A stretch of 64,000 nucleotides of DNA from Chondrosia reniformis (lineage: Eukaryota; Porifera; Demospongiae; Chondrillida; Chondrillidae), in the NCBI GenBank assembly GCA_947172415.1, contig OX359193.1, positions 506,501 to 570,500 of the forward strand, given 5' to 3'. Numbering within the stretch: position 1 is the stretch's first letter; each line of letters opens with the position of its first letter. Positions 284-49,297 of this stretch are shown piece by piece. The position numbers and the translations under genes are program-made. A model generated the notes under the pieces. It was not told where the DNA came from. It was given only the letters and a program-made list of their open reading frames with translations, and ran no database searches.

Positions 284-2354
284 CTAGGAGACTGGAGGTT
301 GGGAGGAAATAGGGTCTTGCGAAATTTGATGGTCCTGTTGCACAAGATCAGCAGATGGCTCAATGCTACTGACACCGCTACTTGCACTGTTACTGCCATG
401 TGATGAGGTATGTGACTTCTTTAACTTGACAGTACTTTGCCTTTTCTCTTTAGCCCTTCCATGAGGAGTTGATAAGGGAAGCAGGTTCTCTTGAGGGTAG
501 CTTACGAAACCTGGTAGCTTGGTTACCCAGTGAAGTAGCTCAGATTTCTCAATCAGGACAATCTTTGGACCTCTTACTTTAAAAATATTAAACATGTCCT
601 TTGTATCTTAGCAATAGGCTAAGGATTTCAATCCAACAAGTAGCCAATATACAATCACACTCATATAGACATGAAATGATAAGGAGTATTTGTTATGTTC
701 ATATTAGTAATAGGGGTTAGTCTAGCATCAGCAATACAAATTATTGTCAAAACGTATGTTTCTACCCAGAGGTCTTCTTCAGCAATGAAAAAGACTGCTC
801 AACTAACCTAACTATTACTCATATATAGAGACATGTGCATACATATGCATAGCATTATAGGAAAGAGTGCTTTAACCAACATTATAGAGGTGCATCAGGG
901 GAACAATTCATCTTTCTACATAGGAGAAATAACTTTTAGTCAACTTTAGTAGATAGTCAACTGTATGGAAGGGTAGGTACCATTACCAGTGGATAAACAG
1001 GTGCATGTGAGTACATTGATGAATGTGGAATTCTCAGAAACAGCTGTCTGGCCCGGTAGAGAAGAAGAGAAGGAGAAAACTCCTGTATCCTCATCCAAAG
1101 CCCTCACTAGGTTTAGTTCCCTATAGGCCTTTACTCGTAAGTACATATAGTATGCAAAAATTATATAAAGATTATTCATACATACATATGGTATATCAGT
1201 GGATACACAACATTCCTACTACTATTCCTGCTATGTGTGCCAGGAATGCTACATGATCAAATGTGACCACCTCACAGATCACTGCCACCAGCCAAGGAAT
1301 GGACCACCAGGAGAGAGTGACTCTACCCAACTTGGACTCCCATCTCTTCTTGGCACTGCTAACCTCAAGGACAAACAGTGCAAATGCCACAGGGGAATAC
1401 CCCACAAAGCAGTAATAGAGAATATCATTGTAGAAGTAGACTATTATTACTTCAAATAGCAAGTGAAACAAGGGGATGAGAAGGGTGAAGATGATGATAA
1501 TGTTCAGAAAGTGGTAACTCCCCAAATAACTTTCTACCAGCGTTCCCACTACAAAGAAGAACACGACTACTGCTAAAAGATGACCAATATCGTAGTGCAC
1601 TGCCCCATAAGTTATCACTCGGAACCCTACAAAAATAATGCAAAATTACACATATAAAAACAAATATGGTAATCAATGATTCATTGAGCATCAGCAACAT
1701 ATACTTATATACTTATATATACTTATACTTATACATATACTTATATACTTATACTTATATACAGATATGAAAAATCTAAGATACCATTTTCCTACATGCT
1801 ATATGCCTATTCTGTAAAAGAGCCTATAGGGGAACTAAACCTGAAGAGAGCTTATACTTATATACAGATATGGACGTTTCGACCCGAAAGTCTTCATCAG
1901 CAATGATGAGGAGATATTTATAAACTGATTTCTGTATCTCCTCATCATTGCTGATAAAGACCTTCGAGTCGAAACGCCCAAATCTGTTAAATATATGTTG
2001 CTGATGCTCAATAAATCATTGATTACCATATGATCGCAACAAATACTCCCTATTACTTCAAAAACAAGTATATAGCTACAAGTTTCATTCTACAAAATCA
2101 ATTAGTCACTCTACTTAGTACTTTATATACTCACTACTACAACTCAATCAATTAGTTAATATTTAAACCTAATGAAAAATTAAAATATTAATTGTACTGA
2201 GCTTACATTCCTGATATTGTATCATACTTGCCAAGTTTAAACAGAACGGATCGCTTTCTGAAAAGAAATACCATGAATTAAGCAAATACCTCATGCAGTG
2301 AGATAAAAGAAGTATTATTGTAGTCACCGTAGTAACTAGAGTAGTAACGGCCAT
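284..2354 (-). CDS. RHBDD2: RHBDD2-like rhomboid membrane protein
   Basis: Three exons on the minus strand (2354-2207, 1626-1207, 570-284) join in phase to about 284 aa. Exon 1 starts MAVTTLV and gives the first hydrophobic helix; the junction creates EWFRVITY, matching the W-x-x-(Y/F)-R-x-(V/I)-T-Y segment after TM1 of RHBDD2. Exon 2 holds the remaining helices, with GYSPVAFAL at the position of the rhomboid GxSG motif and AHIAGIVVG at the catalytic His helix. Human RHBDD2 has GFTPVAFA there and is thought to be a non-protease; here both a Ser and a His are present although the last Gly of GxSG is Pro. Exon 3 encodes a polar Ser-rich cytosolic tail. Intron 2 contains a hammerhead repeat and intron 1 a fold-back element. 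Family call is firm; protease activity is unknown and the exon 3 acceptor is less certain. Confidence 0.75.
680..840 (-). repeat. Fold-back element with decayed hammerhead motif
   Basis: An imperfect inverted repeat (about 702-722 against 810-832) encloses, read on the minus strand, CTGAAGA (788 side), a helix II-like AGACC/GGGT and GAAA (762-759). This is the same layout as the elements at 1664-2031 and 63190-63312 but with a mutated core (CTGAAGA for CTGATGA). It also shares the flanking AGGAGTATTTGTT-type segment with those copies. Lies in intron 2 of the RHBDD2-like gene. Confidence 0.5.
1010..1192 (+). repeat. Hammerhead-bearing interspersed repeat, copy 1
   Basis: First of nine related copies in the window. 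Read on the plus strand it has TTGATGA (1016-1022, core C changed to T), a helix II segment, GAAA (1037-1040), palindromic helix III with CAGCTGTC ending at 1048, then TGGCCC of helix I, followed by the body ending near ATTCATAC. Located in intron 2 of the RHBDD2-like gene, antisense to it. Confidence 0.7.
1664..2031. repeat. Fold-back element with two head-to-head hammerhead motifs
   Basis: About 40-bp terminal inverted repeats (1664-1703 and 1992-2031) and an inner inverted repeat (1873-1916 and 1935-1979, 18-bp spacer). On the minus strand the left inner arm reads CTGATGA (1900-1894), a short helix II, GAAA (1880-1877) then CGTC, a complete hammerhead core with predicted cleavage between 1873 and 1872. 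The right arm carries the plus-strand version with CTGATAA (1951-1957) and GAAACGCC, which is mutated. A fragment of the interspersed hammerhead repeat (about 1769-1853) is inserted inside. Sits in intron 1 of the RHBDD2-like gene. Confidence 0.7.
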
Positions 2355-7732: not shown

Positions 7733-10700
7733 ATGAACCGCCTTGTTTTGATCGTTTGGCTGCAGTTAGCTGCAGTCACGTTTGGACAGAATTGTTCATC
7801 AGAGTGTAGTGTGCTATGCTCCGACGGGATGGTTATTTGCGCGAATGTTGACGGATTCCCAGAATTTGAAGAGTCGACCAAACCTTCAGTTGAAAGATTG
7901 TAAGTATTATTGCCTGATTCGGTGATTAATCAGCAATGGACTCGTAGCTATCAGCTCATTGCTTATATCTGTCTGCTTGTAGAAGAGTGCTTAGCGGAGT
8001 GGTTCCCCACTTAAACTCATCTAGCCTGCAAAACTTTATCAACCTGGTGGAATTCCAAATAACCAGATCTGCCCTAGAGCATATTGAACCGGAAGCTTTT
8101 GTACATAGCACTGCAATTATCAGCATGTAAGTATCCCTTTTCGATAATTCGAACAGACTTCTATATTAATTAAGGAAGTTACGCATTTTAATCTACTTGT
8201 CATGTACTTCAATACTCTTTCAATCACTTTAGAAATTTATCAGATAATTTACTGACTACAGTCCTGCCGGATACCTTCCAAGGTAGAGTCCGTTCCGTAG
8301 ACCTATCAAATAATGACATCACTGAGGTGCATCCTGAAGCATTCAGTGGAGTCCTCCAGCAGGGACGCATAGCACTGGATGACAATGAGATAGTCACACT
8401 AGAGGAAGGAGTATTTCAAACCTCTTACAGAACAATGTAAGCATGTTCTTGTGCTGTTAAATGCATGCAACTAGAATACTGAGAAGGTAGTAGCATGTAG
8501 CATTACATTAGAATGAAATGATATAGGCTTTATCCTTGATTGCTGCTTGATTATTTTTATACATATGCATATGACATATGTATATGTATAAAATGTATTA
8601 TCTATTTTACATATTTGTCTTGGGCCCAATGGGACTTCCCAGTCTAAATAAGATTAATGAATTGAATTAACATAGTAAATACGTGACAAGAGCAATATTC
8701 ATGGCTACCTACATATATGTACATGCAATAACAGCTTATTAAAAGGTTCATTAAATATGCTAAAATAGTCTATTGTTCGTAGTAAAAATCGTCATAAAAC
8801 TCAAGTTTACCACTGTGCTATAAGGCCTTTTCGGAGAATACCACTCCTCATCAGTAGCACTGGGTAGCAATTCTTTAGAGTAACCAAGCTACCAATTCTT
8901 TATCTCTCGACAAAGGATTGGCTGAAACACATTTAAAAACGTCAAACCTACAACTCAGAAAACTCTATAACCAACATCAATATTATTATGTAGGCAATAA
9001 TTTCCTTGTTCATAGTCTATTGTTCTTATCTTTCTGTTTGGATAATATTCATATCATAAGTTTATTTGTGAATTAAACATGGCTGATGTCTAGTTTAACT
9101 GCCGGCCTTTTGAGGAGTTAGCTAAAGGGTTGTCCTGGAAAGGAACTGTAACCCTTTTTGTTAGGGAAATCTCTCCTTGTAGCTATTTGTCATTGTTTTA
9201 AATGAACAGGGTTCTACTCCTTTTGGAATCCATTTCACAAACAATGACTGTCACAAAAATTACTATGAGATGGTTATGATGGACTTAGAGAACACCATTG
9301 TTGATGTCCAGACACTTAGCTTTTGAACTTGGTTACAGAAAATAATTGTGGTTTTCTTATCAATTACTCACGTTATTATATTATACGTATACATGAAAAT
9401 CTATGTACATAATACGTATATATTGACAAGCAGGTTTTGATAGGAAGCCACAAATATTCTACAAAGTTAGTGAATGAAAAGTAACCAAAAGGTCAAAGGA
9501 GATTATTGGGTTAAAACATATTGCATAATTACAAATATCGTACTTACGTACATATAATCTTATTTGCACTCATAATATTGAGTGCAATTGTGAAGAATGT
9601 GTGAACAGAACTAGTATACTAAAGTTTTCTCAAATGATAAAGTGAAGCTCTGGTCCCCTGTTCCAATTTATGACACTCATGTCAATTTTAATGTAAGGGG
9701 ACCTAATTATACGTAAATTTTCCCTACATATACCTAATTATACATCTGTTTAATGAATACATTATTCCTATGCCCTGGAATAGTAATGTATTCCATATCT
9801 ATGTAGGGAAAATTTGTACATATATGTATATCTATTGACTAATATACCATTTGTATCATACATCTTGTGCAGATCTCTTGTCAATAATCCTCTCATCTGT
9901 GATTGTCGCTTGAGATGGCTGCCCCGATATTGGGCTAATGTTTCTGAACCAGATGAATCAGCCACTTCAAATCAACTGATCGGTTTCTGTTCTAGCCCTT
10001 CTTATCTCAATGCGACTGCACTGAACTCCTTATCTGTTGACCAGCTGATATGTCCCTGTGACCCGGGCTGCGTTGAAGGGGACTGCAATGAGGAGTTTGG
10101 AGAGTGTGAATGCTTTGACGGTTGGATGGGGGGAGATTGCAGTCTCCCCTGTCCGCCAGATACTTATGGTGAAGCTTGCAGTCAGAACTGTACATGTGTT
10201 CACAGTAGTGTGACATGCTCCCACGTTAATGGGAGTTGTACATGTGATCCAGGCTACAATGGAGCTACGTGTGAATCAGGTAGGTGTGTAGTCACGCCTT
10301 CAGCCACTGAGCATATTGTATGGAAAAGACTGTTCCAATCTGTGAATGTCATGTGCTGTCATGTGACTTGGCAATCATAGGTCTACATTAACTAGTACGT
10401 TGGCTATTACCACACAAGTAGTCATTTGAAGCATTGGAGTCATATGCAGTATATACCAATAGACTCCTATACTATGTAGTACATATAACCATATAGACTC
10501 CTATACTACGTAGTACATATAACCATATAGACCCCTATACTATGTAGTACATATAACCATATAGACTCCTATACTATGTAGTACATATAACTATAGACAC
10601 ATATACTATGTAGTATAGAGAGTAGTATGGTATAACAATGTTCCACAATAACTTCTGCCGCCTCACAGAGTGTTCGGAGGGTACTTATGGACCTGAGTGT

Positions 10701-12866: not shown

Positions 12867-14560
12867 GTAGGCCTGCATATACTACATCATGTACGTGGTG
12901 CTCTAGAAGTTCCTATTATATATAGTTGTGCCTTGACCTGGTACGAGAAACAAGCACAGATAGTAAAGTGATTGACAGCATACACTCTGGTAGAATTAAG
13001 AAGACTGTGGTATTTAACAGACAAACTAGGAAAACACTTTTTAATTTTTAAAGTTCTGTGTGTCATAGTCTTTGTATATTCTTGAATTTTCTGAATACTT
13101 TGTAAATTGTCACACATTTTCTCTTTCTTTTTGTAAATCAAGCTCTTGATAATTCTTGATAATAATTTACCAACTTTTTTGCTATTATTAACTCGCAATA
13201 ATATGTACTTTATTAGCCAGTTACATGAATAAATTTCTCTCTCTCCCTACATTTATATTAATGTCTGCCAGCAGTGTAGAATGTGAATGTCAAATATACT
13301 TGTGAATGTAAGTTAAAATGCATACTGTGTAAAGGTGGAAATATTTTTAAACAGTATCACATTGCTGATCAAATAGCAATTAATTACAAGAGAGACTAAT
13401 TAAATTAAACAATCATTAAAATTAGTACTTGACAAACAATATATTTCCATATATGGCATGTTACCACTTATCTTCTGTTTTGCATTTCATAAATCTGACA
13501 CAAGTGATGAATCCATTGGCTCACAGGTTAACATACACATGTACATTTATTCCACCTTAGTTTGCATCTATATATATAAAGCAATAAGTGGTAGCCATAT
13601 TTTAATTACATTCTTGTGGTATACAGCTAGAAATGCAAGCACTTGGGGAAACCACTCACTCCAAGCACCACCTCAACATTTTAAATATTGAAAAATGCAC
13701 CTCATAAAGATGACTGCACATATATACATATCCATGTCCACATCATTACAGTAAATATATAGTACATACATGCATGTCCATATTCTTACAGCATTTATAT
13801 ACAATATAGTACATGCATGTAAGAAACGGCTGTCTGACCCAGTGGAGAAGAAGATGAAAGAAGGGAAAAGACTCCTGTATCTTCATCTAAAGCTCTCTTT
13901 AGGTTTAGTTCCCCTATAGGCTCTTTTTACAGAATAGGCATATAGCATGTAGGAAAATGGTATCTTAGATTTTTCATGCATGTAAGACATATATCTACCG
14001 TTTTGCTGTGCTGTTGACGTCTGCTGTGCTGTGATCTTGGTTTGCGGTCTCTGCACTCAAGTTTGTTCTTCCACACTTCAAGATAGGTAGAGTCAGTTAG
14101 AGGGTCTCCTCTTCGAATTTTACTATATACAAAGAAGCAATGCAGTTTGTAAACAGTTTGTAAACAATAATACAGTATAATAAGATATATACTGTAATTT
14201 TGTGTGATAAATTTTCATGTTGAAATAATATTTGCATGGCTAAGCACAGAACACCATGGCCAAAAATATTTATGTGAGAAATTTTGAGCCAACCATGAAA
14301 ATTTTTATATGACAATGAAAATTTCCTAAATTATTATATACTGAATGCTATAAGACACTTGTGCATTTGATGGCAAACCTTCTGATGCTGATCTCAGTGT
14401 AACTAGGTCTGTTCAGAGCACACTGTCTCAGACTTCTTTTGCTTTTCTGAGCAGCATCCAAATTATCCTCTACATGTTGAAATTTAGTAAAGAAAATGAT
14501 GATATTTAATTAGCAATATATGCTCAATTAATGCATATATATACGTAGTCCCTTCATTAG
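12867..14560. other. AT-rich stretch between converging genes
   Basis: No convincing exon was found. It may contain the missing 3' exons and UTR of the LRR-EGF gene. It holds one interspersed hammerhead repeat (13826-13980). Confidence 0.4.
13826..13980 (+). repeat. Hammerhead-bearing interspersed repeat, copy 3
   Basis: 5'-truncated copy: begins at GAAACGGCTGTC, i.e. inside the ribozyme after helix II, then TGACCCAGTGGAG and the full body to the TTAGATTTTTCATG end. Confidence 0.8.
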
Positions 14561-23800: not shown

Positions 23801-26800
23801 ACATATTTGTAAACAATACACCAAGCTCACACATATTTGTAAACAATACACCAAGCTCACACATATTTGTGTAAAAGGGTAGCATATGTGAATACAAAAC
23901 ACGTGAAAGCATTAAAAAGAGCTTAGCACCTTGTTAAGCAAAGCTTTGCATATCACAAAACCTCCTACAGCAAAATCACTATATTTCAAGTACCTAATTT
24001 GAAGATAGCTTGCAATCCTACTAATCAGTGAGAGGGGTAGTTTTGTGAAATATGTTAGGAATGCCATCCCCCAGGAGGAGACAAACAAAATACCTCAGAA
24101 AATCAGTCTAACAGTACACAAGGGACACTGTTCCCATGACTCAATAAACTGTCTACTTTCATGTGTACATTTCTAGGAATTTTAAGTGTAATAAAATATT
24201 TTCAGTCAAGCATGACATTCCAAGGAAGGAAATTTCAATTGCTGCTTCAATGGCATTCTGAGGAACAGAATATATTCTTAAGTTGATACATTCATAATTT
24301 CCACTATATTGATACATTCAGCTTCTACCTTCACAAAAATAATTATATAGACCAAATGAAATTAGCGACAATGCAACAATAAGAAGACACTACATGGTGC
24401 TAGTTGGTTCCCAAGCTGTTACCGGCCCACCCTAAGTAAACATGTTTATATAAAAAGATTTTGCACCTAACAACAGTTTCCCAGACCATCAACAGGTGGA
24501 ACCTGATCATGACTTCACTGCTCTGTATTCATCGAAAAATGCTTAGTTTAGCAGTAGAGACACACTAGATGGATTATTTTCATAACAACAGAAAGTACCA
24601 ATTTATTATCTAATACACACACACTATTCTATGGTTGGATATACTTAACCGGTAGTTTTAATCTTACACTTTGTTCACAGCTGATTTCAAAGGAGCTTAT
24701 GTATACAAAGGTGTTCATTTCTGTGGATTCCTATGGCTATATACAAGTGTCCTGTATGTACACTAACCTCATTAATATTATACACTAAAAACAAGTGGTA
24801 TATAGGATGGCCAAAAAGATATATATACCAAATATAGATATTATATATACAACAGTTCTTCCACCATATGTCTACATAATCAATGGAACTATTATAATAA
24901 CTACGTACCTATATAATACATATAGGGGGTTACTATATACAGTAGGCAACAGAATTTTACTGTTATTATTGACTTTAAAATTATACCTGCCCCACAGCCT
25001 TAAGAAGGATAAGCTGGTTATTGATGAGATAGAGAATATCACTAATAAAATTCCATATGTACATCTTGGAAAGGCTACACTTAACTGCAGTTTGTAACAC
25101 TAATTTGTTCAAAGACCCAATTAACAGTGATACCCTGTTGTATTTATTCTGAAACTTTAATCATGAAGGAGTTCAACCCACCTTAACAAGTTTAGCAATA
25201 GCACAATATAAAAACAGTATGTTCTAATAATCTAATTTCCTCCATTCTCATTGATGTCAATACAATTATCAATTATGACACTAAGACATATTACAAACAC
25301 CACCAATCTAGAACTAATGGTTACATAGCAACCTATAGTACCAGAAAATGGAAGGACAAGATAAAACAGTAAGAAATGATCAAGATAAAAACAAGTTTAA
25401 GATGCCAAGACCTTTCCACATGATTTAGGGAAAAAAAGGTCTCACTCAGTTTACTAGGAAATAGGTGAATAGAGATGCCAAATAAGGCAATAATATTATA
25501 TATTGCTTTCAAAATTGTTTAAAAGTAACAGATTGTGTATGACTCCCATTCAACTGTCTATGACACTTAATTGAAACACACCAGTCTAAGGTGCATGTCC
25601 AAACATGAGATTGTAAATCTGCAGGGATCAGCAGTTAGATCACTCAGAGGTCACATGATCCTGTGTACTTCAGTACACCAATACATGACAATCGAGATCA
25701 TGCAACTGAAGAAAAACTTTTCATGTACTCTAGTCTGGGGTTTGATGTATATATGCATGAGATCAGTCCATCATTATCAAATAGTGTGTATAAAATCTTT
25801 ACAAACTTTAAGAGTTGATTAAACTAATTGGATAGCTATACATTGTAAAATATAATTTTATCAATGTTTACAAACAATAACTCTACATCAGAATCTTTGG
25901 CAATGAAAGCTACTATAAGCTATAGCTATCTAATTCACTGTACATTGACTATTTCACATTAAAGAGAATCTAAAGAGAAGAGTCAACTTGTTTTCATACA
26001 AACAGAATTTATAAGGCTAAACCATATACAGATATAGGGTAAGACAAGTTCAATTTCAAGGATTCTGATCTCAAGAAGATCAAGGTAAAAGAACTCTTAT
26101 AATGTCTAACACAGGTAATCAGTGATCTAATGAAAGAACAGGATACTAGAAGCCCACAGACACTGGCAGCATAGCTCTAGCATACACCACAAATGAGTTA
26201 TTAAATTTACAGTTACAACTGACAGACCACAAAGCTAAGGAAAGTGGGAGCCTTTTAATTTTGAATTGCACTTCTTATCAAAGGAGAGAAGACATCAATC
26301 AGACTTCCTGCAAAGCCCCAGACTAGAATCTGACACCTAAGACTAGTGTCTGACAAGTGCATAAGACATTCATGCTCAGCACATAGACATTGCTGATGAA
26401 AAGGAGTTGATAAGAGACTAATGCTTAGCAATAAGTACTCTGTCTCCTATGATGAAAGAAAATCACAAAAACCTAATTATTGTTTTTTATAAACATTATT
26501 CCATTCTAATATTTCACAAACAAAGATCATTGACAAGGTAAAGATTCCCAGGGTCACTGCTAAAGGGTGGAATTCCCAGAAACAGCTGTCTGGCCCAGTG
26601 GAGAAAAAGAGAAGGAGAAGGAGAAAACTGTTGTATCCTCATTTAATGCTCTCACTAGGTTTAGTTTCCTATAGACCTCTATTCTAAAGTAGATGTAGCA
26701 CGTTGACAAATGGTGTGTTAGATTATTCATACACACAGTGTGAACAAGGCATGTCAGTGTTATAAGCCTCACCATGTACTTCCCTCAACTGTGAGATAGC

Positions 26801-29472
26801 AGTCTTCAGTTTCTCTTGAGATTCAGAGGAAAGAAAGGCATACATATCATCATGAAATATGGAGTAACTGCTTTCTTTGAACAACTGGCCAACTGTCACT
26901 TTCGGTTGAAGTTCCAGCATACCCTATACATATTAGATAACCCTTATAAATTTTCACCAAATATGGACCAGCTGATATGACAAAATGTACACATCATAAA
27001 TCAATAATATTTACTATCTTCAAGGAATGGACAGCTGAGCTTGTGTGTCAGTTACTTGGAGCATATTTTCACAGGTTTCTGGTATTATATATGTATATAT
27101 AGGATGTACACTGTTAGGGACACTATACATACAGCTCTTAGTATTAGCCAATCAAAGCAACTTGACCACAGCCAATCAAAAGGAACCTACACAAACCTTA
27201 CAAAGAGCTAACATTACATATTAAAGTGGTACATATAGGTCAGAAAAAAGATGACTGGTCAGTGTCATTAGAGTGACACGACACTGCGACACTAATCAAA
27301 CATCCCTTGTATGCTGCCAGTTGGATTCATTAAATAAAGGACATTGTCTCTGACAGGTAGCCATATCAGACAAGAGTGTAATGATAAAAATGAAAAATGC
27401 AATGAACCAATGGAAATCGATCATGTTACATACATAATATAGCCAATGGCCAATTGGCCCAGTGGAGAAGAAGGAGAAGTATCATCATCCAAAGCTCTCA
27501 CTAGGTTTAGTTCCCTAAAGGCTTTTTACTCTAAAGTAGATGTAGCAAGTTCAGAAATGGTGTGTTTGATTATCATGTGAATTGAACAGTACCATTCAGT
27601 GAAGGTCTTGATAAATATGACAAATGTACGTAATGGTAAGACTTCAGTAAGATTCTGATATAATTAACGTTTGGACACAGTGTCACAGAAGAAGGAGAAC
27701 ATGTATTAAACTGAGGCATCACACAATAGCTGTATCCCACTTAATGGCAGTTCAGGAATTTTCACTCCTACATCAGTAATGCTTTGAACCCCATAATACT
27801 ACCAGGAATTACAACACGTACTTAAATGCCCTTTTTGAACTATGGACTTCAAAAATTTCTTTTACTAAAAATAGCCATAATATTATGCTCTAAAGTTGAA
27901 ATGGTTGTGGTGTGTTATCTGTATTGGAATGGTCACTGGTGCTTAAAAGGATGACCATTGTAACCAGAGACAGACAACACTGTTAACAAGTTTGTAGCCT
28001 TGACACAATCCCATGTTCAGTATTATGTAAAACAAGCTAATAAATAGGTACAACTCTCACCATGGAGAGGAACAATAATACATTGACTTCTTAAATCTTT
28101 ACTTTCGTGTAGATAACGCACACTATACACTACATGTTCTCCACTAAATACTGAACTGCTGTAGTTAAGGTGTGAATACGCTTAATTTCAATACTAACAG
28201 TAGAGATCCTTCACTAAGATATAGTGACTAAGGATTACTGTAGACTTCACCCAAGGTGAAAGCCAAATATGATAGTTTTAACTTATATCCAAAGATCAAA
28301 GACTTGAAATTCTTTGATGTTTAGGAAATTCAGTTCAATAACTATGTTCATACGTACATGAAGTATTTACATTGGTGAGTTAACATCTATTAACTATGCA
28401 TATGCACATTGGATTACTGTAAACATGGAGTAAACTAAGTGCATCTTCAACAGTACTCAAGTGTAGTAACAAATATGTTGAATAGATATAAGAATAGGCT
28501 AATAGACATATGTGAGCATAGAGAGGCAAAAAATTCAAACTGAAGAGACACACGGATTCTTAAGAAGCAAACTATAACATTTTGTATAGATACTGGTATC
28601 TGACTAAATATAAATTATATATTACTACTATTTAGTATATGATAGCAGCTATCTTGACAATCACTGCAGTAGTCACACTGATTGGTATTTACCTTAATAT
28701 CTATTTCAGTTAAACCAGCAACTTCACAGAAAGATTTCATGTCAATTAATGTATCTAACTCTTTTTCAACTGTTAGACGCTTGTCTGGATCTTCAATAGA
28801 CTGCAAGGCAGTGTGCTTGACTTCTAATTGTTCCGCAAAAAATTTGTAAAGCTTGGTTTGCTGTGAGGAAAATGGAAAAGTAACTAAAAAGGGAAGTCTA
28901 CAGTAATGTCATACAGTAAGGGAAGGAAACTTTATTTTTAAAAAAATTGATTTTTGAGACTGCGTATAGATAGTCAACGGTTCTAATAGAGGCACAAGGT
29001 TCTTGCTGATTGCTCTTACGAGGTCCTCCAGAGTGGTCTGAGAGTCGTCTACAGCGACAAGATATCTCACCTTGGGTCGAATGCATATATAGATTATACG
29101 GAGACAAAAAAGGACTTTTCGCATGACGAAGCAAGACAATTTACAAAAGTCAAAACCTACATATGTAAAACTAAGCCCCAAAAATAAACTATAATAGGAG
29201 ATTCTAAACATATTAATATACATGGCAGGCCATACGACAAAATAGGTCCAACGAGGGCTTACCAATGTACGAATCATACTCCTCAGATCGCTATTCGCAG
29301 TGGGGAGAGATCTGTTTGACACAAGATTACGACAGTAGAGGTTGATAATCATCTGCCGCCCGCCAATCTTGTCCTTTGCAGTAGCAATGTCTGTGGCGTT
29401 AATATTGCCCTTCTCCTGGGCCCCTTTTTCATTTATGGTCGAAATCACCATCCTTTCGGCTGCATCACACAT
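17811..29472 (-). CDS. KSR: Kinase Suppressor of Ras-like scaffold
   Basis: Eighteen exons (29472-29263, 29070-29020, 28860-28693, 26923-26773, 23707-23099, 22258-22180, 21865-21779, 21522-21380, 20964-20598, 20498-20435, 20311-20186, 19984-19896, 19360-19187, 19069-18973, 18878-18742, 18662-18516, 18314-18191, 17960-17811) give about 990 aa. Order: KSR CA1 coiled coil/SAM-like region (TLEDLQTKLYKFF, KLKTAISQLREV), Ser-rich linker, C1 zinc finger split over three exons (HRF...CDFCKKSLYLGVQCKLC...CHKHCKKKVPESC, about residues 421-468), Ser/Thr-rich linker, kinase domain from about 690. Kinase hallmarks of KSR: RHENVVLFMGVC, HKDL rather than HRDL, PRGWLNYVAPE, SDIYAFG, WNYTPEERP. KSR scaffolds RAF, MEK and ERK. 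Odd points: no glycine-rich loop, DVG for DFG, Asp for the helix C Glu, but the VAIK-type Lys is kept (VLVKK). Confidence 0.92.
22783..23068 (-). repeat. 24-bp minisatellite in KSR intron 5
   Basis: About twelve copies of ACTACTGAGTACAGAGGGGTGGGG (24 bp). On the coding (minus) strand each unit reads pyrimidine-rich CCACCCCTCTGTACTCAG, a 3' splice-site-like string. Confidence 0.92.
23709..23868 (-). repeat. 30-bp tandem repeat in KSR intron 4
   Basis: Five copies of a 30-bp unit (AAACAATACACCAAGCTCAC ACATATTTGT) ending a few bases before the acceptor of exon 5. Confidence 0.9.
23869..26535. other. KSR intron 4 interior
   Basis: AT-rich intron DNA; no exon, RNA gene or repeat recognised. Confidence 0.5.
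26536..26737 (+). repeat. Hammerhead-bearing interspersed repeat, copy 4
   Basis: Includes the ribozyme region: GGGTCA helix I arm, mutated core CTGCTAA (26557-26563), GAAA (26579-26582), CAGCTGTC (cleavage after 26590), TGGCCC helix I arm, then the body. Within KSR intron 4, antisense to the gene. Confidence 0.8.
26924..28692. other. KSR intron 3
   Basis: 1.8-kb AT-rich intron; apart from the repeat at 27455-27580 nothing was recognised. Confidence 0.5.
27455..27580 (+). repeat. Hammerhead-bearing interspersed repeat, copy 5
   Basis: Homology to the family starts at TGGCCCAGTGGAG, exactly at the predicted hammerhead cleavage position, and runs through the body. The preceding ribozyme half is absent, as expected for insertion of a self-cleaved RNA 5' end. 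Confidence 0.75.
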
Positions 29473-33512: not shown

Positions 33513-36500
33513 ATGTTGCGAATAGGATTTGGTTCATCCACCATTCGCCTAGCTAAGAATGGATCATTGCGGAGCTGCGCGAGCTCGAGGTTTCTTCTTT
33601 TGGTAAGTGCATGTATTGCATATTGTGTGCATAACTTTAACTGCGTTGTATATACTTGTATAGAAACGAGCGTTTACAATCGATCGCCAACTGAAATCTG
33701 ATCCCGTTGTTTGCTCTCACAACGAATGGGATCCACTGGAGGAAGTCATCGTTGGGCGTGCCGACGGAGCCTATTTCCCTCCAGCCGAATCTGTTGAGGT
33801 GAAGGCATGCATTTCAGAAAAGCATTTGAACTTCTTTAAACAAAACGGTAGAAAACCATTTTCACTAGAGTTTGTCAAGAAAGCTTGTGAAGAACTTGAC
33901 AACCTCTCAAATGTCTTAAAGCAAGAAGGAGTGACAGTCCGCAGACCTGTTAAATTAAGTAATGAGGGAAAATTTTTCGAAACTCCTGATTTCAGTTCGA
34001 GTAGCATGCAGATAGCTATACCAAGAGATTTGCTACTGGTAGTCGGAGACGAAATCATTGAAGCACCAATGGCCTGGAGATCAAGGTTCTTCGAATACCG
34101 TCTGTATCGGCCCCTTCTCAAGGAATACTTCGATAAAGGGGCCAAGTGGACCACAGCCCCTAAACCACTCATGAGTGATGACCTCTATGACTTGGAATAT
34201 GCTGAAAAGAGAGAAAGGGAGAGACATTCACTAACACTTGAAAAGAAGAGATTCATGACTACAGAGCATGAACCATGTTTTGATGCTGCAGACTTCTGGA
34301 AGGCAGGAAGTGACATATTTGCTCAGAGGAGTCAGGTACCTTTTAACCATATAACTGTTACTGTATCTACAATGCATTAATAAAACACAAACAATTATAT
34401 AACACTGGCATGAATGACATGTTATACCATTAGCAAGATGGCAGATATAGAGTTAGGCCATGGGAGCTATATAGTTCAGTAATATTAGAAACCATAAAAT
34501 GTCATAGTAAACCAAATAAGTATTGTGTTTACAGAGGTTTATCAAAATTGTTAGAGTGTAATAAATTGACCACAATATGATGACTCAGAGCTATGGTATA
34601 TGTATGTTTATTTAGATAACAGATAATAACAATATGACATATTTACTATGGCAATATAGGGCTGTAATATTAGACAAGAGCTCTAACTTATGGTTACAGT
34701 TTCCAACTGATGCAACCTTTATAAGAACTTGACATTAACTTGCCAACAGTCATAACAGCAATTGACAAATTTATGAAGCAAAAACAGTTCACTATTCTGT
34801 TGGAGTCCCGTCAGAAATGAGCACCTACGTTAATTAGGTGATATTCTGTGTGTATAAGATTGTGCAAACCAATACCAACCTGAGCTCATTTACTCATATG
34901 AAATCCTATGTTAAAGTGTGGCTGACCACTAATATAGAAATTAGGGTAATAGCCTGAGTTCAATGATGATGACATTAATGCTTTAAGATCGGCTTTAGAT
35001 CTTAAAGTTTCCCTATTTTTCCAACTTATTATGACATATACTTTATAATATTCATGCATATCACACATGAGAGAAGAATATGGTTCTATTACATACCTAT
35101 ACGATTAGGTTACCAATCTTAAAGGCATTGAATGGATGAGAAGGCATCTTGGAGAGAAATACAACATACATGTGTTATCCTTTGGTGATGCTAATCCCAA
35201 GCACATCGATGCCTCCTTACTAATTATTGGTCCCGGTTTGGTGCTAGTAAACCCCAGCAAACCCTGTCATCAACTTGACATATTCAAGAAAGCAGGTATA
35301 TACATACATGTGTACATGCCACAATGTGTTATTTCTTGTACAATTTGTAATGTTTATGCACTTGCCCCCTCAACATTTATGAAGCTTTCTGTAGCAGTAG
35401 TATGCCATGACAATATGGAATACACAATAACAAGGCAGATAACTTACTTAGATGCTTAGGTGTTCTCACGAGGTAAAAATTTTAATTAACAAGACCATTT
35501 TCCGACATCATATGTAATGACTAATAATGGTAAGATGGAGGCATTCCCTGTGTGCCCCCAGCCTGCCCCCTATAAATAAAAAAGTGTACCACTGCCTCCG
35601 TTATGTATCTGTACACTTTCACATGTTACGAAGTTTGTGTATAATCTCCGACTAACTTTTATTTCTTGGAGCAAATTCACAAACCCATCATCAGGAATCT
35701 GATTTATGTACATGTCTTTCTAGGATGTATTGCATGTCTATATAAGGCATATACTTACATAGGTGAGGTGAGAAAAGTTGAAATCATATGTGATAAGCAA
35801 AAATAGGAAAATGTATTCTTATCCAAAGCTATATACATAATACATTGGATAGGGCGACCATGTTTTTTTGGCCATCCTTACTTAGAGAGTACTGCCGTAC
35901 TCTCTAATATATATAGTTATATAAGTCTAGGAAACAAGTTTAAATTTTGTTGTGATAATTTTTCCTTATATCATATAAACACTACATAGGAAAGGTGTGT
36001 TGTATAATTAATTATCCATGAAAAATCTAATATACCATTTTCCTACATGCTATTCCTATTCTGTAAAAAGCCTATAGGGGAACTAAACCTGAAGAGAGCT
36101 TTGGATGAAGATACAGGAGTCTTTTCCTTTCTTTCATCTTCTTCCCCACTGGGTCAGACAGCTGTTTCTGGGAATTCCACCCTTCATCAGTGATCCTGGG
36201 AGTCTTTGTCTTCTTCTTGATCTTGATCTGTGAATCCATGCATACAGAGATAATCTATATCACGTTTATTCATATGCATGCAGGTTGGAAAATTGTTGAA
36301 GCTCCTAATGGAACCACCCCAGCCTCCCATCCATTGTGGTTCTCCTCAAGTTGGTTATCAATTAATGTGCTCATGTTAGACGAAAAGAGAGTTGTCGTGG
36401 AAGAACAGGAAACTCCAACACAAAAAATGTTTGAAAAATTAGGTATTCAGTGTGTCAAGGTATATACTATCATGAACCCATGGCGGTATGTGTTGTCCAT

Positions 36501-37727: not shown

Positions 37728-37872
37728 TAACAATATGAATAATCGTACATGTATATCATTTTTCTATGCCTAAACTCTGTAATAAATTAAAAGCCTATAG
37801 GGAACCGTAACCTGGATAGCTTTGGATGAGGATACAGGAGTCTTCTCTTTCTTCCTCTGCTGCACTGGATCA
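37728..37872 (-). repeat. Hammerhead-bearing interspersed repeat, copy 7
   Basis: Copy-2-specific insertion. Homology ends at ...CTGCACTGGA at about 37870, next to the position equivalent to the predicted ribozyme cleavage site; the ribozyme half is missing. Confidence 0.7.
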
Positions 37873-38093: not shown

Positions 38094-41000
38094 ATGTTGC
38101 GAATAGGATTTGGTTCATCCACCATTCGCCTAGCTAAGAATGGATCATTGCGGAGCTGCGCGAGCTCGAGGTTTCTTCTTTTGGTAAGTGCATGTATTGC
38201 ATATTGTGTGCACAATTTTACTGCGTTGTATATACTTGTATAGAAACGAGCGTTTACAATCGACCGCCAACTGAAATCTGATCCCGTTGTTTGCTCTCAC
38301 AACGAATGGGATCCACTGGAGGAAGTCATCGTTGGTCGTGCAGACGGAGCCTATGTCCCTCCAGCCGAATCTGTTGAGGTGAAGGTATGCGTTTCAGAAA
38401 AGCATTTGAACTTCTTTAAACAAAACGATAGAAAACCATTTTCACTAGAGTTTGTCAAGAAAGCTTGTGAGGAACTTGACAACCTCTCAAATGTCTTAAA
38501 GCAAGAAGGAGTGACAGTCCGCAGACCTGTTAAATTAAGCAATGAGGGAAAGATTTTCGAAACTCCTGATTTCAGTTCGAGTAGCATGCAGATAGCTATA
38601 CCAAGAGATTTGCTACTGGTAATCGGAGACGAAATCATTGAAGCACCAATGGCCTGGAGATCAAGGTTCTTCGAATACCGTCTGTATCGGCCCCTTCTCA
38701 AGGAATACTTCGATAAAGGGGCCAAGTGGACCACAGCCCCTAAACCACTCATGAGTGATGACCTCTATGACTTGGAATATGCTGAAAAGAGAGAAAGGGA
38801 GAGACATTCACTAACACTTGAAAAGAAGAGATTCATGACCACAGAGCATGAACCATGTTTTGATGCTGCAGACTTCTGGAAGGCAGGAAGTGACATATTT
38901 GCTCAGAGGAGTCAGGTACCTTTTAACCATATAACTGTATCTACAATGCATTAATAAAACACAAACAATTATAGGTATATAATTAACACTGGCATGAATG
39001 ACATGTTATACCATTAGCATGATGGCAGATATAGAGTTAGGCCATGGGAGCTATATAGTTCAGTAATATTAGAAACCATAATATGTCCATAGGAAACCAA
39101 ATAAGTATTGTGTTTACAGAGGTCTATATAATTGCTAGAATGTAATAAATTGACCACGATATGATGGCTAGGGTATATGTTATTTAGATAACAGATAATA
39201 ACAATATGACATATTTACTATGGCAATATAGGGCTGCCTGTAATATTACTTAGACAAGAGCTCGAACTTATGGTTACAGTTTCCAACTGATGCAACCTTT
39301 ATAAGAATTTGACATTAACTTGCCAACAGTCATAACAGCAACTGACAAATTTATGAAGCAAAAACAGTTCACTATTCTGTTGGAGTCCCGTCATTTAAGG
39401 AACCTATGTAAATTAGGTGATATTCTGTGTGTATAAGTAAATAAGCAAATTTCCAATACCAACATTCATTTAGCTGAGCTCATTTACTCATATGAAATCA
39501 GATGGCAACAGTTACTATATATATTAATTACTGTAAAAGTGGTTTGGTAACATATTATGATATCATCATCATTGTCTGGATATTACCCTGCCCACTCATG
39601 TCCCCTGAGGAGCGCAATGAGCTAATGGGTGGAACAGAAGCTCGCTTGATGAGAACCAGAGTCTCCCCCTAGCCACTCAAAAAGATGGTCGAGCCATAGA
39701 CAGCTGTTTCGTCCTTATTAGGACTCATTAGTATGTCATACGATGGAAGTTTGAGTGGCTAGTCTGCTAATAAGTACTCCGAAATTTCTTTTGGTTTCCT
39801 TGTTAGCAGATAAGGGGTACAGCCAAAAGTGTGGCTGACCACTAATATAGAAATTAGGGTAATAGCCTGAGTTCAATGATGAAGATATTAATGCTTTAAG
39901 ATTGATGCTTTAGATCTTAAAGTTTCCCTATTTTCCAACTTATTATGACATATACTTTATAATATTCATGCATATCACACATGAGAGAAGAATATGATTC
40001 TATTACATACCTATACAATTAGGTTACCAATCTTAAAGGCATTGAATGGATGAGAAGGCATCTTGGAGAGAAATACAACATACATGTGTTATCCTTTGGT
40101 GATGCTAATCCCGTGCACATCGATGCCTCCTTACTAATTATTGGTCCCGGTTTGGTGATAACAAACCCCAGCAAACCCTGTCATCAACTTGACATATTCA
40201 AGAAAGCAGGTACATACATACATGTGTACATGTCACAATGTGTTATTTCTTGTACATTTTGTAATGTTTATGCACTTTCCCCTTCAACATTTATGAAGCT
40301 TTCTGTAGCAGTAGTATGCCATAACAATATGGAATACACAATAATAAGGCAGTTAACTTACTTAGATGCTTGGGTGTTCTCACGAGGTAAACATTTTAAC
40401 TAACAAGACCATTTCCCCACTTTTATGACATCATATGAAATGGCTAATAATGGTAAGATGGAGGCATTTCCTGTATGCCCCAGCCTGCCCCCTATAAATA
40501 AAAAAGTGTTCCACTGCCTCCGTTATGTATCTGTACACTTTCACATGTTACGAAGTTTGTGTATATAAAATTTCCGACTAACTTTTATTTCTTGGAGCAA
40601 ATTCACAAACCCATCATCAGGAATCTGATTTATGTACATGTCTTTCTAGGATGTATTGCATGTCTATATAAGGCATATACTTACATAGGTGAGGTGAGAA
40701 AAGGTAGAAAAATTGAAATCATATGTATTAAGCAAAAACAGGCTATATATATAGGTATATAAGTCTAGGAAACAAGTTTAAATTTTGTTGTGATAATTTT
40801 TCCTTATATCATATAAACACTACATAGGAAAGGTGTGTTGGATAATTAATTATCCATGAAAAATCTAATATACCATTTTCCTACATGCTATTCCTATTCT
40901 GTAAAAAAGCCTATATGGGAACTAAACCTGAAGAGAGCTTTGGATGAAGATACAGGAGTCCTTTCTTTCTTCTTTTCCTATCTTTCATCTTCTTCCCCAC

Positions 41001-42373
41001 TGGGTCAGACAGCTGTTTCTGGGAATTCCACCCTTCATCAGTGATCCTGGGAGTCTTTGTCTCCTTCTTGATCTTGATCTTCTGTGAATCCGTGTATACA
41101 GAGATAATCTATATCACGTAATAATATATTTATTCATATGCATGCAGGTTGGAAAATTGTTGAAGCTCCTAATGGAACCACCCCAGCCTCCCATCCATTG
41201 TGGTTCTCCTCAAATTGGTTATCAATTAATGTGCTCATGTTAGACGAAAAGAGAGTTGTTGTGGAAGAACAGGAAACTCCAACACAAAAAATGTTTGAAA
41301 AACTGGGTATTCAGTGTGTCAAGGTATATACTATCATGAACCCATGGCGGCATGTGTTGTCCATCTGATCAAAGTGATAATCAAACCACAATCATATTAA
41401 GAAGGAAATGTAGCTACATATAGTTTTGACCACCAGTGTATTGAACTAAGATTGTCACAATAATGTTCCATTCATGCTTCCCTCTTCATATACTAACAAA
41501 TAAGTATAACTATTCCTCTATTAGTATATTATTTAGTTGTAATTTTTACAGTAGAAGCCGAAAATCAGAAACATACACAGTCTATATATATATATATACA
41601 TCAAATTTCATTTCCTTTTACATCAGCCCTACCAATTTGTATAATATTCTGCTTTTCAGTGCCTGTCATTTGCACAATCATGAAGTTCTTGAGCATATCA
41701 ATAGCACATACTATGTATATGTATGCATAACTATCACTGACCTGACTTAATCCCTGTGTATGTGAAGCTGAAAAATCATACGGTCTATTTGTAACTATAT
41801 ATCTTTAATTTCATAATCACCAAAACATATGTGAAAAATGAAACTTTTATTCATCAGACAATTCATATTATATATACATATATATGTATACATAGCTCTT
41901 TACATAGGATATTAAATAGAAAGTATACGTGTAATATATGATATTGAGCATATCAATAGCAAAGTAATTATTACAGACCATTCCGGTCTTGTGGACCTCT
42001 ATCAGCTGAATGGCACCGGCCTCTCCACGTAATAATTACTTGAAAATCGTTTGTTAATAAGCTCAAGAATCCTGATATCATATTGGGCTTAGCAATGAAT
42101 CTCTCCCTCCCTCCCTCTCTCTCTCTATGTAATATGTATATACATGTAATACATATCACATAAAAGATCAAGGTTATATACCAAAGTAACCCAATGCCTA
42201 TACTATAAACAATAAGGTATAAATTTAATTGACAATTGTTCTGAATATAATTATTGTGCATGTGATAAATATTTCTATAGGTTCCTCTCCGCCATGCTTA
42301 CTCACTTGGAGGTGGTATTCACTGCTGGACTTGTGATGTCCGGCGAAGAGGAAAGCTTGAATCATATCTTTAA
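38094..42373 (+). CDS. GATM: Glycine amidinotransferase, copy 2
   Basis: Exons 38094-38183, 38244-38915, 40023-40209, 41148-41323, 42281-42373, identical in length to copy 1, 405 aa. All catalytic residues are kept ([18 protein letters not shown]). Differences from copy 1 include GAYVPP for GAYFPP, CVSEK for CISEK, QNDRK for QNGRK, NPVHID for NPKHID, VITNP for VLVNP and SSNWL for SSSWL, all outside the triad, so both enzymes should work. Introns 2 and 4 are longer because of insertions. Here the bases 5' of the ATG contain an in-frame stop, so the start is unambiguous. Confidence 0.95.
39520..39830 (-). repeat. Copy-2-specific fold-back with near-complete hammerhead
   Basis: Inserted in GATM copy 2 intron 2, absent from copy 1. 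Outer inverted repeat CTAGCCACTCAAA / TTTGAGTGGCTAG. Minus strand: helix I CATA/TATG, CTAATGA (39731-39725; one change from CTGATGA), helix II GTCC/GGAC, GAAA (39710-39707), palindromic helix III ACAGCTGT and GTC, predicted cleavage between 39699 and 39698. The G5-to-A change should abolish activity. Confidence 0.75.
40855..41095 (-). repeat. Hammerhead-bearing interspersed repeat, copy 8 (intact core)
   Basis: Equivalent of copy 6, in intron 3 of GATM copy 2. CTGATGA (41041-41035), GAAA, ACAGCTGT, GTC; predicted cleavage between 41018 and 41017. Confidence 0.82.
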
Positions 42374-44153: not shown

Positions 44154-47100
44154 ATGAAGCTTACACGAAAATATATTGATCCTAAAACGAAATCTGGGTA
44201 AGTAGAGTTTTGCTAACAATGTGCTTAGAAATCTAACGTATTACAGACTTTACTGTGTGTGAGGCCTGCGAAGCGTCGAGTGTACATCTTCTCCTTGATA
44301 GGACGGTGTCCCTCATCCCAGAAGAGCCTGAGGATATGTGGCATGCGTACAATCTCATTACTGTTGGCGATCATGTTAAATCTTCGACGATTAGGTAAGT
44401 CGGTATACTGCAACAGGATCATACAGAATTGAACGATCCTAGTAGCGGTTTCTTGAAAGCTAGATTAGCTTTATTGAATCCTTTTACACTTGTTTCTGAA
44501 CAGGAAGATCAAAGAGGAGACCTCTACGGGAAGCTCATCAAGTCAAAGGATAAGAACCACTCTGACACTCTCTGTAGAAGGAACCGAGTTTGACACCACT
44601 GCCTGTACTCTGAGAGTCAAAGGGAGAAATGTGGAAGAGAATAAATTTGTAAAGGTACGTAGAATCTTGTTTTTTTTTTTAAATTTGAGTGAGTGAGAAA
44701 ACATTTACATCTATTTATACATAAGATAGTCACACATTACCTGTATGTTTATACATTGGCAAAGGAAATACTGTCTTGGCTCATGACAGACGTGTATACG
44801 TGTATACGTGTGTATAACATGGATTTGAATAAATATTGCTAAGTTTCTTAGAGCTACAATGTGTTCAAGTGTTCAACACTGTTTAGATGGGAGCGTATCA
44901 CACCATTGATTTGGTTCTGAATCAGCCATTCACACTAGTGAAGGATCACTGGGATCTCATAGCCTTTGAACGCCTTGGTAAGACCATAGCAACGCACTGT
45001 CATGGTTTTTGTTATAGTCCATAGTCCAAAAAGTGATATGGAATGGGATCTCTTTAACTAATTGCTCCTACATTAAGTCATCGTCTATTGCCCTGTGTTA
45101 CAAATTATTCTTATTCTTCTTCATGTAGATCTTGCGTGTGATGCTTCAAAAACAGCTGATGTAGCAGTATTAATTATGCAAGAAGGTGCTTATTAATCTA
45201 ATGTTTATATGTACCGTATTTGTCCATATGGAGGCTGGGCTCAAATAAAGGCCTGGTCTCGTTTAGTGGCCTGGGCTTCTATTACAGTAGACATCACAAG
45301 GGAGACCAATTTTATAATTGGGACATCTTGGAAGCCATGAAAATGTCCCAATTGAATAGCTATTTCATTTAACTTTACTTATACCTATTTGTATGATTGT
45401 CAAGTCAGCACTTTTTATTGTGGTTTGTGCATAGGACATTAGGTATTATAGTATGGTTCAATAAGAGTAACACTGTTGCCATGGCTCCCACAGGTCTGGC
45501 CCATATCTGTCTGCTGACCTCTTGTATGACAGTCACAAGAGCGAGGATCGAGCAGAATATTCCCAGGAAGCGCAAGGGAATAGTGGCACAGCACGATAAG
45601 GTAGCCATCTTGTTCATTCAACATGTGTCCTGGTAACAACAGAATGGTCCTCGTAGGGAATGGAGAAGTTCTATGAAACTGTAATGCAAGCATTTTTGAG
45701 ACACATCAGATTTGAAGGCAAGTGTGTCCATACAATAGTGGAGATGAAGGATATCAAGTTAATGTATTGGTTTGTCATATGCAGTTGTAAAGTGTATATT
45801 GGTTGCCAGCCCGGGATTTGTGAAGGTACTAATGACTGCTCAATGCATACATGAAAAATCTAATACACCATTTTCCTACATGCTATGTCTATTCTGTAAA
45901 AAAGCCTATAGGGGAACTAAACCTGGAGAGAGCTTTGGACGAAGATACAGGAGTCTTGTCTTTCTTCTTCTGCTCCACTGGGCCAGATGGTTATTTCTAG
46001 GAATTCCTCCCTTCATCAGTGACCCTGGGAATCTTTGTCTTCTTCTTGATCTTGATCTTTTATTTATTATGTTGTACATACGGACTGCATGTATGTATGT
46101 GTTATGTATGTGTATCACTCGTTTGTGGTTGTAGGACCAATTTTATGAGTACTTATTTGCTGAAGCAATCAAACAGGACATTAAAAGTGTCATAGAAAAT
46201 AAGGCCAAATTTCTACTGGTGAGACAACCTCTTTAGATCCTTCTTGATTTCTTCTTTTTCAAGTTTTGACCATTGCAGAAGCTACATACGTATACGTATG
46301 TTGCTAATTTATCAATTTCTGTACATTTTCAGGTCAGATCATCGTCTGGTCACAGACATGCTTTAAAGGGTATGTCATATGCTATGTATCATTCACACAT
46401 TTAACTGCTAGCCGCTAAAATAGTACATGTATGTGCTATCCAATACTTTATGACCAATTAATAATCCTCAGGGCTGCATAGAGGGGGATTCCCCCCTAGG
46501 ATTGATATCCCCCCCTAGACTTTTGGGAAGTTAATATAAACTACTTATATCATTGCCCCCCTAAATTTTGAAAATTTTCATCCACCCCCTGACCCCAGGT
46601 TCTGCATCCACCCCCTGGTCCCTAGGCTAGATTGTGTGTTATTCACATTATTTGTTTATATATGCATATGTACTGTATAAAATGATATACTTATTTTATG
46701 TGAATGTAGAGGTATTGGCAGAGCCGGCCACTGCAATCAAATTGGCAGATACAAAGGCTGCCGGAGAGGTGAAGGCTCTTGATGCCTTTTACCAAATGCT
46801 CCAAAATGAACCAGATAGAGCTTTCTTTGGGTAAGAAGACTATATAGCTACGTAAATGTGTACATATGCTTGTCAAGATCATGTGCATAATACTCACTTG
46901 ATCATCTCTGTATGCCACTTTTTGTCTTTGCTCTCCTTTCCTATTCCTTTTGGACCTTCTCCTCGGCTCCTGCTTACATTTGCCCTATTTCTCTATCTTG
47001 TCATACAATTCAGGTTTGATCATGTTATTAGAGCTAATGAATTGAATGCCATTGAAGTTCTCATGATGACGGATGAACTCTTTAGGTAATACCATGTCTT

Positions 47101-48279: not shown

Positions 48280-49297
48280 TATATCTAAGTCCTGGTATAA
48301 AAAGTTAATGTATATATGGTGAGAGATAGGGCAAATTTTAAGTGCCATCAAAATTTCAAAAACTCATTAGACATACTCTATAGGTGGCTGTGAATGTTGA
48401 CACAAAGTATTAGCTCCATGTCTTTCTGTTTGATAGAGTGACAGCCCTCAATGTACATTAAATCCTGGTATACAAAAGTTAATGTATGGTGAGAGATAGG
48501 GCAAATTTTAAGTGCCATCAAAATTTCAAAAACTCATTAGACATACTCTATAGGTGTCTGTAAATGTTGACACAAAGTATTAGCTCCATGTCTTTCTGTT
48601 TGATAGAGTGACAGCCCTCAATGTACATTAAATCCTGGTATACAAAAGTTAATGTATGGTGAGAGATAGGGCAAATTTTAAGTTCCATCAAAATTTCAAA
48701 AACTCATTGGACATACTCTATAGGTGTCTGTAAATGTTGACACAAAGTATTAGCTTCATGTCTTTCTGTTTGATAGAGTGACAGCCCTCAATGTACATTA
48801 AATCCTGGTATACAAAAGTTAATGTATAGTGAGAGATAGGGCAAATTTTAAGTGCCATCAAAATTTCAAAAACTCATTGGACATACTCTATAGGTGGCTG
48901 TGAATGTTGACACAAAGTATTAGCTCCATATCTTTCTTTTTGATAGAGTGACAGCCCTCAATGTACATTAAATCCTGGTATACAAAAGTTAATGTATAGT
49001 GAGAGATAGGGCAAATTTTAAGTTCCATCAAAATTTCAAAAACTCATTGGACATACTCTATAGGTGTCTTTAAATGTTGACACAAAGTATTAGCTTCATG
49101 TCTTTCTGTTTGATAGAGTGACAGCCCTCAATGTATATTACATTCTGGTATACAAAAGTTAATGTATAGTGAGAGATAGGGCAAATTTTAAGTTCCATCA
49201 AAATTTCAAAAACTCATTGGACATACTCTATAGGTGTCTGTGAATGTTGACACAAAGTCACAGCTTCATATTATTCCATTTGATAGAGTTACAAAAC
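48280..49297 (+). repeat. 170-bp satellite array 1
   Basis: Six head-to-tail units with an exact 170-bp period (GACAGCCCTCAATG at 48440, 48610, 48780, 48950, 49120). Words shared by all units include GGTGAGAGATAGGGCAAATT and GTTGACACAAAG. Confidence 0.93.

Follow-up and report, generated by a model that had tools for sequence, protein, structure and literature searches.

An excess of copies beginning at the predicted cut of a putative hammerhead in a Penelope-like pseudo-LTR repeat of the sponge Chondrosia reniformis

What kind of element is the short repeat that recurs through a 64,000-nt stretch of the Chondrosia reniformis genome (contig OX359193.1, positions 506,501 to 570,500; this stretch is the window, and coordinates refer to it unless a locus is named), does it carry a hammerhead ribozyme, and have its copies kept a trace of RNA cutting? 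Hammerheads are conserved in Penelope-like elements (PLEs), where they are given 'an unknown role' in the accessible part of one report (PMC7761336). The initial annotation had described nine related repeats of ~220 bp, and a blastn search with window positions 36001-36260 as the query did place the repeat at nine sites on both strands, but only four copies (26513, 36001, 40839 and 45847) approach full length, and since the rest are truncated or fragmentary the original description was an overstatement. The copy under study, a member of the young subfamily, lies on the minus strand at 36020..36237 (ends by eye; blastn 36001-36260), with a start-site-type 5' end and a 3' end of TTTTTC, and its putative hammerhead module occupies 36144..36202 of the same strand, the predicted cut falling between 36157 and 36156. 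A second young copy (40858..41091, minus strand, ends by eye; blastn 40839-41114) sits within a segmental duplicate of the 36-kb region, and its module (40995..41053, minus) is identical in sequence to that at 36144-36202. The third copy of this segmental series (45853..46058, minus strand, 3' end by eye; blastn 45847-46058) has an older-type helix I, and its module (45973..46031, minus) keeps CTGATGA/GAAA and GGGTCA/TGGCCC intact with ATAACCAT replacing the palindrome; the duplicates carrying the 36-, 41- and 46-kb copies are spaced ~4.8-5 kb apart. On the plus strand, blastn located an old-subfamily copy (26513..26730) whose core has decayed to CTGCTAA within a module (26545..26603, plus) that retains an intact GGGTCA/TGGCCC helix I, and a copy whose 5' end lies inside the module and which reads TTGATGA (1014..1132). 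Also on the plus strand are a young copy whose 5' truncation point lies 13 nt above the cut site (13822..13981) and an old copy that begins with the very base following the predicted cut (27455..27571; blastn 27479-27571, extended to 27455 by a later alignment). Completing the set on the minus strand are an old fragment (37789..37872; blastn 37789-37853), whose 5' end directly follows the predicted cut when placed by eye but falls at +12 in the alignment, and a young 3' fragment that adjoins another element (1767..1853, blastn).

Well over a thousand copies are scattered through the genome: exact repeat tags occur 1789, 1678 and 223 times in the 117-Mb assembly (15 contigs), and the reversed tag patterns do not occur in it. 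Two subfamilies are distinguished by the bases after the cut, TGACCC in the young and TGGCCC in the old (80 and 20, respectively, among 100 tag matches listed, all on contig C1). For finer study we took 60 young loci, the first 60 matches listed for the 1678-count tag (all on contig C1), and 60 old loci, the first matches listed for the 223-count exact 3' tag (C1-C5) minus two already sampled. Copies share a fixed 3' end, TTAGATT[A/T]TTC, followed in locus L091 by a 12-bp target duplication (other duplications are short or unclear), and they have variable 5' ends, most frequently at AAGGATTCAC or a few bases above it, with some extending upstream through TATATAAGG, ~33 nt above AAGGATTCAC. Numbering from position 0, the first base after the predicted cut, we found that 15 of 54 old event groups start at -85..-77 (13 of 52 by eye); these 54 groups are what remained of the 60 old loci after a script collapsed alike flanks (52 events by eye), the script having merged the unlike flanks of L148 and L149 and left the look-alike L119 unmerged with L118/L120, and likewise L166-L168. 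Such a start peak combined with a fixed 3' end is what the copying of start-site transcripts from a fixed 3' end would leave. Dispersed, 3'-coterminal copies would also be produced by a pol III SINE, and TGGCCCAGTGG in old copies does fit the A-box consensus (TRGYNNARNGG). A pol III start lies upstream of the A-box and not on its first base, whereas the 5' start of the repeat falls exactly on that base; moreover, ARAGORN found no tRNA in 9 loci, and a TATA lies upstream of a start-site-spaced 5' peak, so that we regard a SINE, for which a B-box was sought by eye only, as extremely unlikely. A coding reading of the repeat was set aside: the frame is open, but by eye there is no ATG between the start site and the module.

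The parent of the repeat was found through its longest copies. Fourteen of the 60 young loci match the whole 182 nt above the cut in the reference copy (itself one of the 14), and the stretch around two of these, locus L191, contains two direct repeats of 655 bp (L191:2537-3191 and 6038-6692) with 100% identity at this one locus examined, in a partial tandem arrangement of direct pseudo-LTRs (pLTRs). Between them runs a stop-to-stop open frame of 997 codons (L191:3247-6240), the last ~200 nt of which lie within the second repeat. The N-terminal part of the frame (L191:3319-4000) matches GIY-YIG with 24.2 bits (Pfam cut-off 22.6; 21.9 bits, just below the cut-off, when the whole frame is searched), and the C-terminal part (L191:4897-6237) matches RVT_1 with an E-value of 5.6e-6 and 26.6 bits, below the Pfam cut-off of 29.6; for the whole frame Pfam listed no RVT_1 match. 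By eye we also see GIPMGTDCAPVVANLFL and YRYIDDLL in the frame, which we take to be reverse transcriptase motifs; PDB searches gave nothing useful. Both L191 pLTRs carry the module (17.1 bits each under model R1, described below), and the repeat of the window corresponds to the pLTR portion from the start site to the 3' end. These observations support the repeat as the terminal part of the pLTR of a PLE whose frame has a GIY-YIG domain at its N terminus and a reverse transcriptase. The layout of endonuclease followed by reverse transcriptase, with partial-tandem pLTRs, is that of the permuted Penelope-like elements (clade names Naiad/Chlamys); a 2021 work by Craig is reportedly, going by its title, on this permuted type.

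Two carriers had originally been offered, a PLE or a retrozyme, and it is the former that the L191 pLTRs, frame and domains bear out. A metazoan retrozyme, that is, a small tandem repeat moved as circular RNA, would account for a non-coding repeat of this size, which is within the reported range, with a hammerhead whose helix III is palindromic, and in the accessible part of the literature metazoan retrozymes likewise have type I hammerheads with a weak helix III and a length of a few hundred bp (PMC7229834). The same source describes them as tandem repeats, whereas the copies studied here are dispersed and have a promoter-like region and an autonomous PLE parent: only 2 same-strand pairs less than 400 b apart occur among 199 repeat places (a count that is weak where loci are short, 120 of them being under 500 b), and none in the 64-kb window. 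We therefore consider a retrozyme very unlikely.

Turning from the carrier to the ribozyme, the old-subfamily module reads TTCC-CA-GGGTCA-CTGATGA-AGGG-TGGAATT-CCCA-GAA-ACAGCTGT-C-TGGCCC-AGT-GGAG, comprising a two-segment helix I around an internal loop, the core, a 3-bp helix II whose basal position is an A.A mismatch, GAA(A), a helix III of 8 self-complementary nt and the cleavage triplet. An axolotl motif, in the accessible part of PMC7229834, is also mismatched at the base of helix II. Young copies mostly have GGATCA/TGACCC as helix I, with one A.C mismatch, and their palindrome is often ACGGCTGT. This bears on the proposal that the copies near 36017 and 40855 keep the whole core: CTGATGA, GAAA and GTC are indeed kept, on the minus strand, but their helix I is GGATCA/TGACCC with its A.C mismatch and not GGGTCA/TGGCCC, the perfect form belonging to the old subfamily and to the copies at 45847 and 26513. 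When the window was scanned with a loose core pattern, 5 matches appeared where shuffling predicts 0.74, two being the 36017 and 40855 copies, one another element (1873) and two unrelated. The sequence shared by old and young copies retains both CTGATGA and GAAA, in alignments that were not selected by core, whereas their absence from the consensus would, according to the initial annotation, have refuted the hammerhead. The exact core survives in 39 of 43 young copies and in 6 of 24 old ones, counting the tag-selected copies whose 5' end lies above -40; such a loss is expected for older, decayed insertions.

Rfam is silent on the repeat. No copy gave a covariance hit above threshold, an outcome that the initial annotation had named as counting against the hammerhead, no family reached its gathering threshold anywhere in the window, the only RF00163 match in the window at E<=10 (39737-39693) is not a repeat copy, and narrow searches of loci L004 and L066 gave no Rfam hammerhead score; with no RF00163 score over gathering, the repeat cannot be filed as a member of Rfam Hammerhead_1. 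The one window match, with CTAATGA in its core (39694..39736, minus strand; RF00163 29.8 bits, gathering 34), belongs to a canonical type I family, which is well represented in the assembly, where 51 of 73 scored RF00163 hits exceed the gathering score; among 14 control genomes RF00163 has matches in 11, none over that score. Four same-strand pairs 352-355 nt apart occur within this family (loci L009-L038), which thereby fits a metazoan retrozyme better than does the repeat studied here. There is in addition an isolated 59-nt hammerhead-like motif, not among the nine copies, at 8808..8866 on the minus strand, which was found by a descriptor demanding paired helices I and II. It shares with the repeat the spacing, core, loop II (TGGWATT) and CA/AGT internal loop, and has different helices and palindrome and UUA at the cut; its flanks do not match the repeat in the sequences compared, it has no Rfam hammerhead score, and it is possibly an old or domesticated copy.

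Since Rfam detects the other hammerhead family but neither the repeat nor the 8808 motif, we used a model made from that other, Rfam-supported family (model R1, built from 11 sequences and run unfiltered on the window). The canonical copy at 39694 ranked first (61.5 bits); ranks 2 and 3 were the copies at 36152 (36195-36152) and 41003, with 21.9 bits each and a rough E-value of about 1e-3. Lower matches were the 1014 copy (16.5 bits, E 0.034), an unrelated site at 46801 (14.8 bits), the old copy at 26552 (14.5 bits, E 0.13), the 8808 motif at 8816 (14.2 bits, E 0.16) and the third segmental copy at 45981 (11.4 bits, E 0.97). Thus 6 of the 8 top matches in the window are repeat copies or the 8808 motif, those below 16.5 bits not being individually significant. 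On seven further loci the model found the repeat copy in 7/7, with 16.7-26.1 bits (L111 26.1; L049 and L066 24.2; L124 18.9; L004 and L191, the latter twice, 17.1; L047 16.7). The reading as a type I hammerhead accordingly stands on the independent model and on the 5' ends at the predicted cut discussed below, but lacks an Rfam score, and taken together the matches support a putative hammerhead module in the repeat.

Could the likeness nevertheless be a coincidence within a leader or a former coding stretch, the 5'-end peak having some other cause? By eye the module does lie within an open frame in both subfamilies, and besides the silence of Rfam its folding energy is unremarkable. A complete hammerhead was the minimum-energy fold in none of four repeat-type monomer modules (the 8808 motif, L066, L002 and the window copy, one fold having used 36149-36207, a frame shifted by 5 nt), none of these stood out clearly in stability from its shuffled versions (z -1.0 to +1.1, compared with -3.1 for a module of the canonical family), and the two young modules folded formed none of the hammerhead helices as expected; the old copy L066, at minimum energy, does form helix I and helix II. 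Pairing was assessed in 48 distinct modules, selected by a pattern allowing at most 1 mismatch in CTGATGA, GAAA and CCCA and at most 2 in AGTGG, so that conservation of the core among these rows is partly built in. Paired cells amount to 88.3% versus 87.0% after shuffling and 23-52% with slid partners; by helix they are 89.9 and 97.9% for the two segments of helix I, 93.2% for helix III and 71.4% for helix II, the basal pair of which is missing in 46 of the 48. Two-sided changes occur in 9 of 18 pairs against 2.4 in shuffles, yet they come largely from the 8808 motif, itself found with a pairing-demanding descriptor, and are thus support and not proof. Against coincidence speak these exchangeable helices, partly circular as they are through that motif and the row selection, the ranks given by the independent model, and a 5'-end peak that sits at a position fixed beforehand by the motif; we find coincidence quite unlikely.

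That peak is the central observation. Among 37 truncated old events with 5' ends in -75..+55, 8 start at 0..+2 (9 by eye), which under a uniform binomial has a P of 1.6e-6; the next best non-overlapping 3-nt windows hold 4 events, at +5 to +9, and there is a smaller cluster at +7..+11. The window copy at 27455 starts at 0. None of the 60 tag-selected young copies starts at the cut, and one young copy that does, L063, was met by chance. Structured RNA can stop reverse transcriptase, and a folding module might therefore give rise to such 5' ends without being cut, as might host RNA processing; the L066 fold with its helices I and II is in keeping with this. A stop at helix I is expected on its 3' side, at +5 to +12, and one at helix III a base upstream, at -1, however, whereas the peak lies at 0..+2, and the interval -4..-1 contains no start among the 54 old event groups. 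We hold this explanation of the peak to be unlikely, while the +7..+11 cluster may be of the RT-stop kind.

Target-like junctions of the form CA|TG, together with targets that often start ATG, raise the prospect that microhomology might favour any TG of the repeat, and we therefore counted such junctions genome-wide at four TG sites. We found 72 at site 0, 15 at -26, 9 at -4 and 1 at +8, or 57, 13, 9 and 1 once neighbours on the same strand within 150 kb are counted as one; from the pooled rate of the controls 10.7 would be expected at site 0, versus the 57 collapsed junctions observed. The native-letter tag counts used here were 1789 for site 0, where the tag is longer by 3 nt, 1800 for -26 and 260 for +8, site -4 having no native count and being assigned 1789; the tags of the control sites are not the same as that of site 0, and the +8 tag covers the old subfamily only. 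Many cut-site junctions share CA|TG with the target, which leaves an uncertainty of 1-3 nt in their start points, and few of them show a clear target duplication. By a call that rests on one base, 37 of the 57 collapsed junctions are old and 20 young, an overrepresentation of the old type relative to its 20 in 100 tag matches listed. The excess of cut-site 5' ends is weaker in the younger lineage with its helix I mismatch; this fits weaker cutting, although a general trend towards longer copies is another possible cause. Descent of the cut-site copies from one source copy is unlikely judging from their sequences, since the start-at-0 copies do not form a significantly tight group and their flanks differ apart from duplicates: the distances among them are a little smaller than among other copies, but 16% of permutations give values as low (10 among 71 compared) in a comparison covering copies of at least 90 nt with a recognisable start, 5 duplicate loci left out. 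Thirteen cut-site-type copies on one strand occupy 2.51-3.56 Mb of contig C2 of the assembly (G000), where one or two insertions have probably been multiplied by segmental or satellite-like expansion.

Copy number, anatomy, PLE linkage, the module and the 5'-end excess are the observations on which a mechanism can be framed, and this excess suggests that cleaved RNA served as an insertion template. A TATA-containing pLTR promoter would start RNA near AAGGATTCAC. The RNA would form a type I hammerhead with a two-part helix I around an internal loop, a short helix II and a self-complementary helix III, likely active as a dimer or with the help of protein, and would be cut after GUC, ~80 nt below the start, giving a 3' product that begins UGGCCC. 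Short pLTR-only transcripts would be copied in trans from the fixed 3' end, yielding 3'-coterminal, variably 5'-truncated insertions, with both uncut RNA and the 3' cleavage product itself serving as templates. We are fairly confident of this account as a whole, in which the repeat is a PLE pLTR whose RNA is cut by its hammerhead and the cut product inserted. We also incline to the stricter view that the repeats record hammerhead cutting in vivo followed by reverse transcription and insertion of the cut product, in a class of copies that would have shrunk in the younger, helix I-mismatched lineage. Were this correct, a distinct class of short insertions would begin at the cut, and the PLE hammerhead would visibly influence the form that copies take, at odds with what is seen in vitro.

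Hammerheads, solo pLTRs and TATA-bearing pLTRs are already known in PLEs from the accessible parts of PMC7761336, PMC6155905 and PMC3846280. The PLEs with type I hammerheads in their pLTRs resemble the present element, as far as the available text goes, in having a GIY-YIG and reverse transcriptase frame between direct pLTRs, a pLTR promoter and a short or absent helix III (PMC7761336, PMC11167929), and the present element differs from them in its N-terminal endonuclease, its many pLTR-only copies and the genomic footprint at the cut. For the anole PLE, the available part of PMC11167929 reports a ribozyme that cut only with protein present, insertion that proceeded without a requirement for cutting, and an absence of RNA-seq reads beginning or ending at the cut; its cut lies just inside the frame, whereas that predicted in L191 is ~280 nt above the first in-frame ATG. 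Penelope pLTRs of Adineta vaga, in the accessible part of PMC3846280, similarly contain TATA and occur as solo and as inverted pLTRs with short target duplications, but unlike the repeat they are of low copy number; the word hammerhead does not occur in the main text of that paper. In the open-access literature searched, which covers key works only in part, we came across no account of PLE copies whose start is the hammerhead cut. The cut-site footprint would be the new part of the finding, and the repeat is a further family among the PLEs with hammerheads. The genome may hold the missing in vivo trace of PLE cleavage, or its elements may differ from the anole PLE. Copies starting at the cut would offer a natural count of cleaved-template insertions, readable in any genome with such elements, and helix I-paired and -mismatched copies a natural mutant series for testing cleavage. 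In R2 elements an HDV-like ribozyme sets the 5' end of the element RNA, releasing it from a host co-transcript. The likeness to R2 lies in a self-cleaving RNA that sets a 5' end, the ribozyme and the element being different. R2 elements with an HDV-like ribozyme are mentioned in the accessible part of PMC3088659.

Several other repeats were noted. A long inverted repeat at 1864-1987, nested in outer arms at 1664-1707/1988-2031, carries on its minus strand CTGATGA..GAAACGTC, which to us resembles the minimal PLE hammerheads without helix III. At 48312-49291 and 50445-51530 lie two tandem arrays, with units of 170 and 174 bp that are related to each other, and the hammerhead descriptor has no match in either. 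Finally, close inverted pairs of the repeat were seen at L048 (1448-1688) and on contig C1 of the assembly (7622828-7623347), the former being joined tail to tail around CATG.
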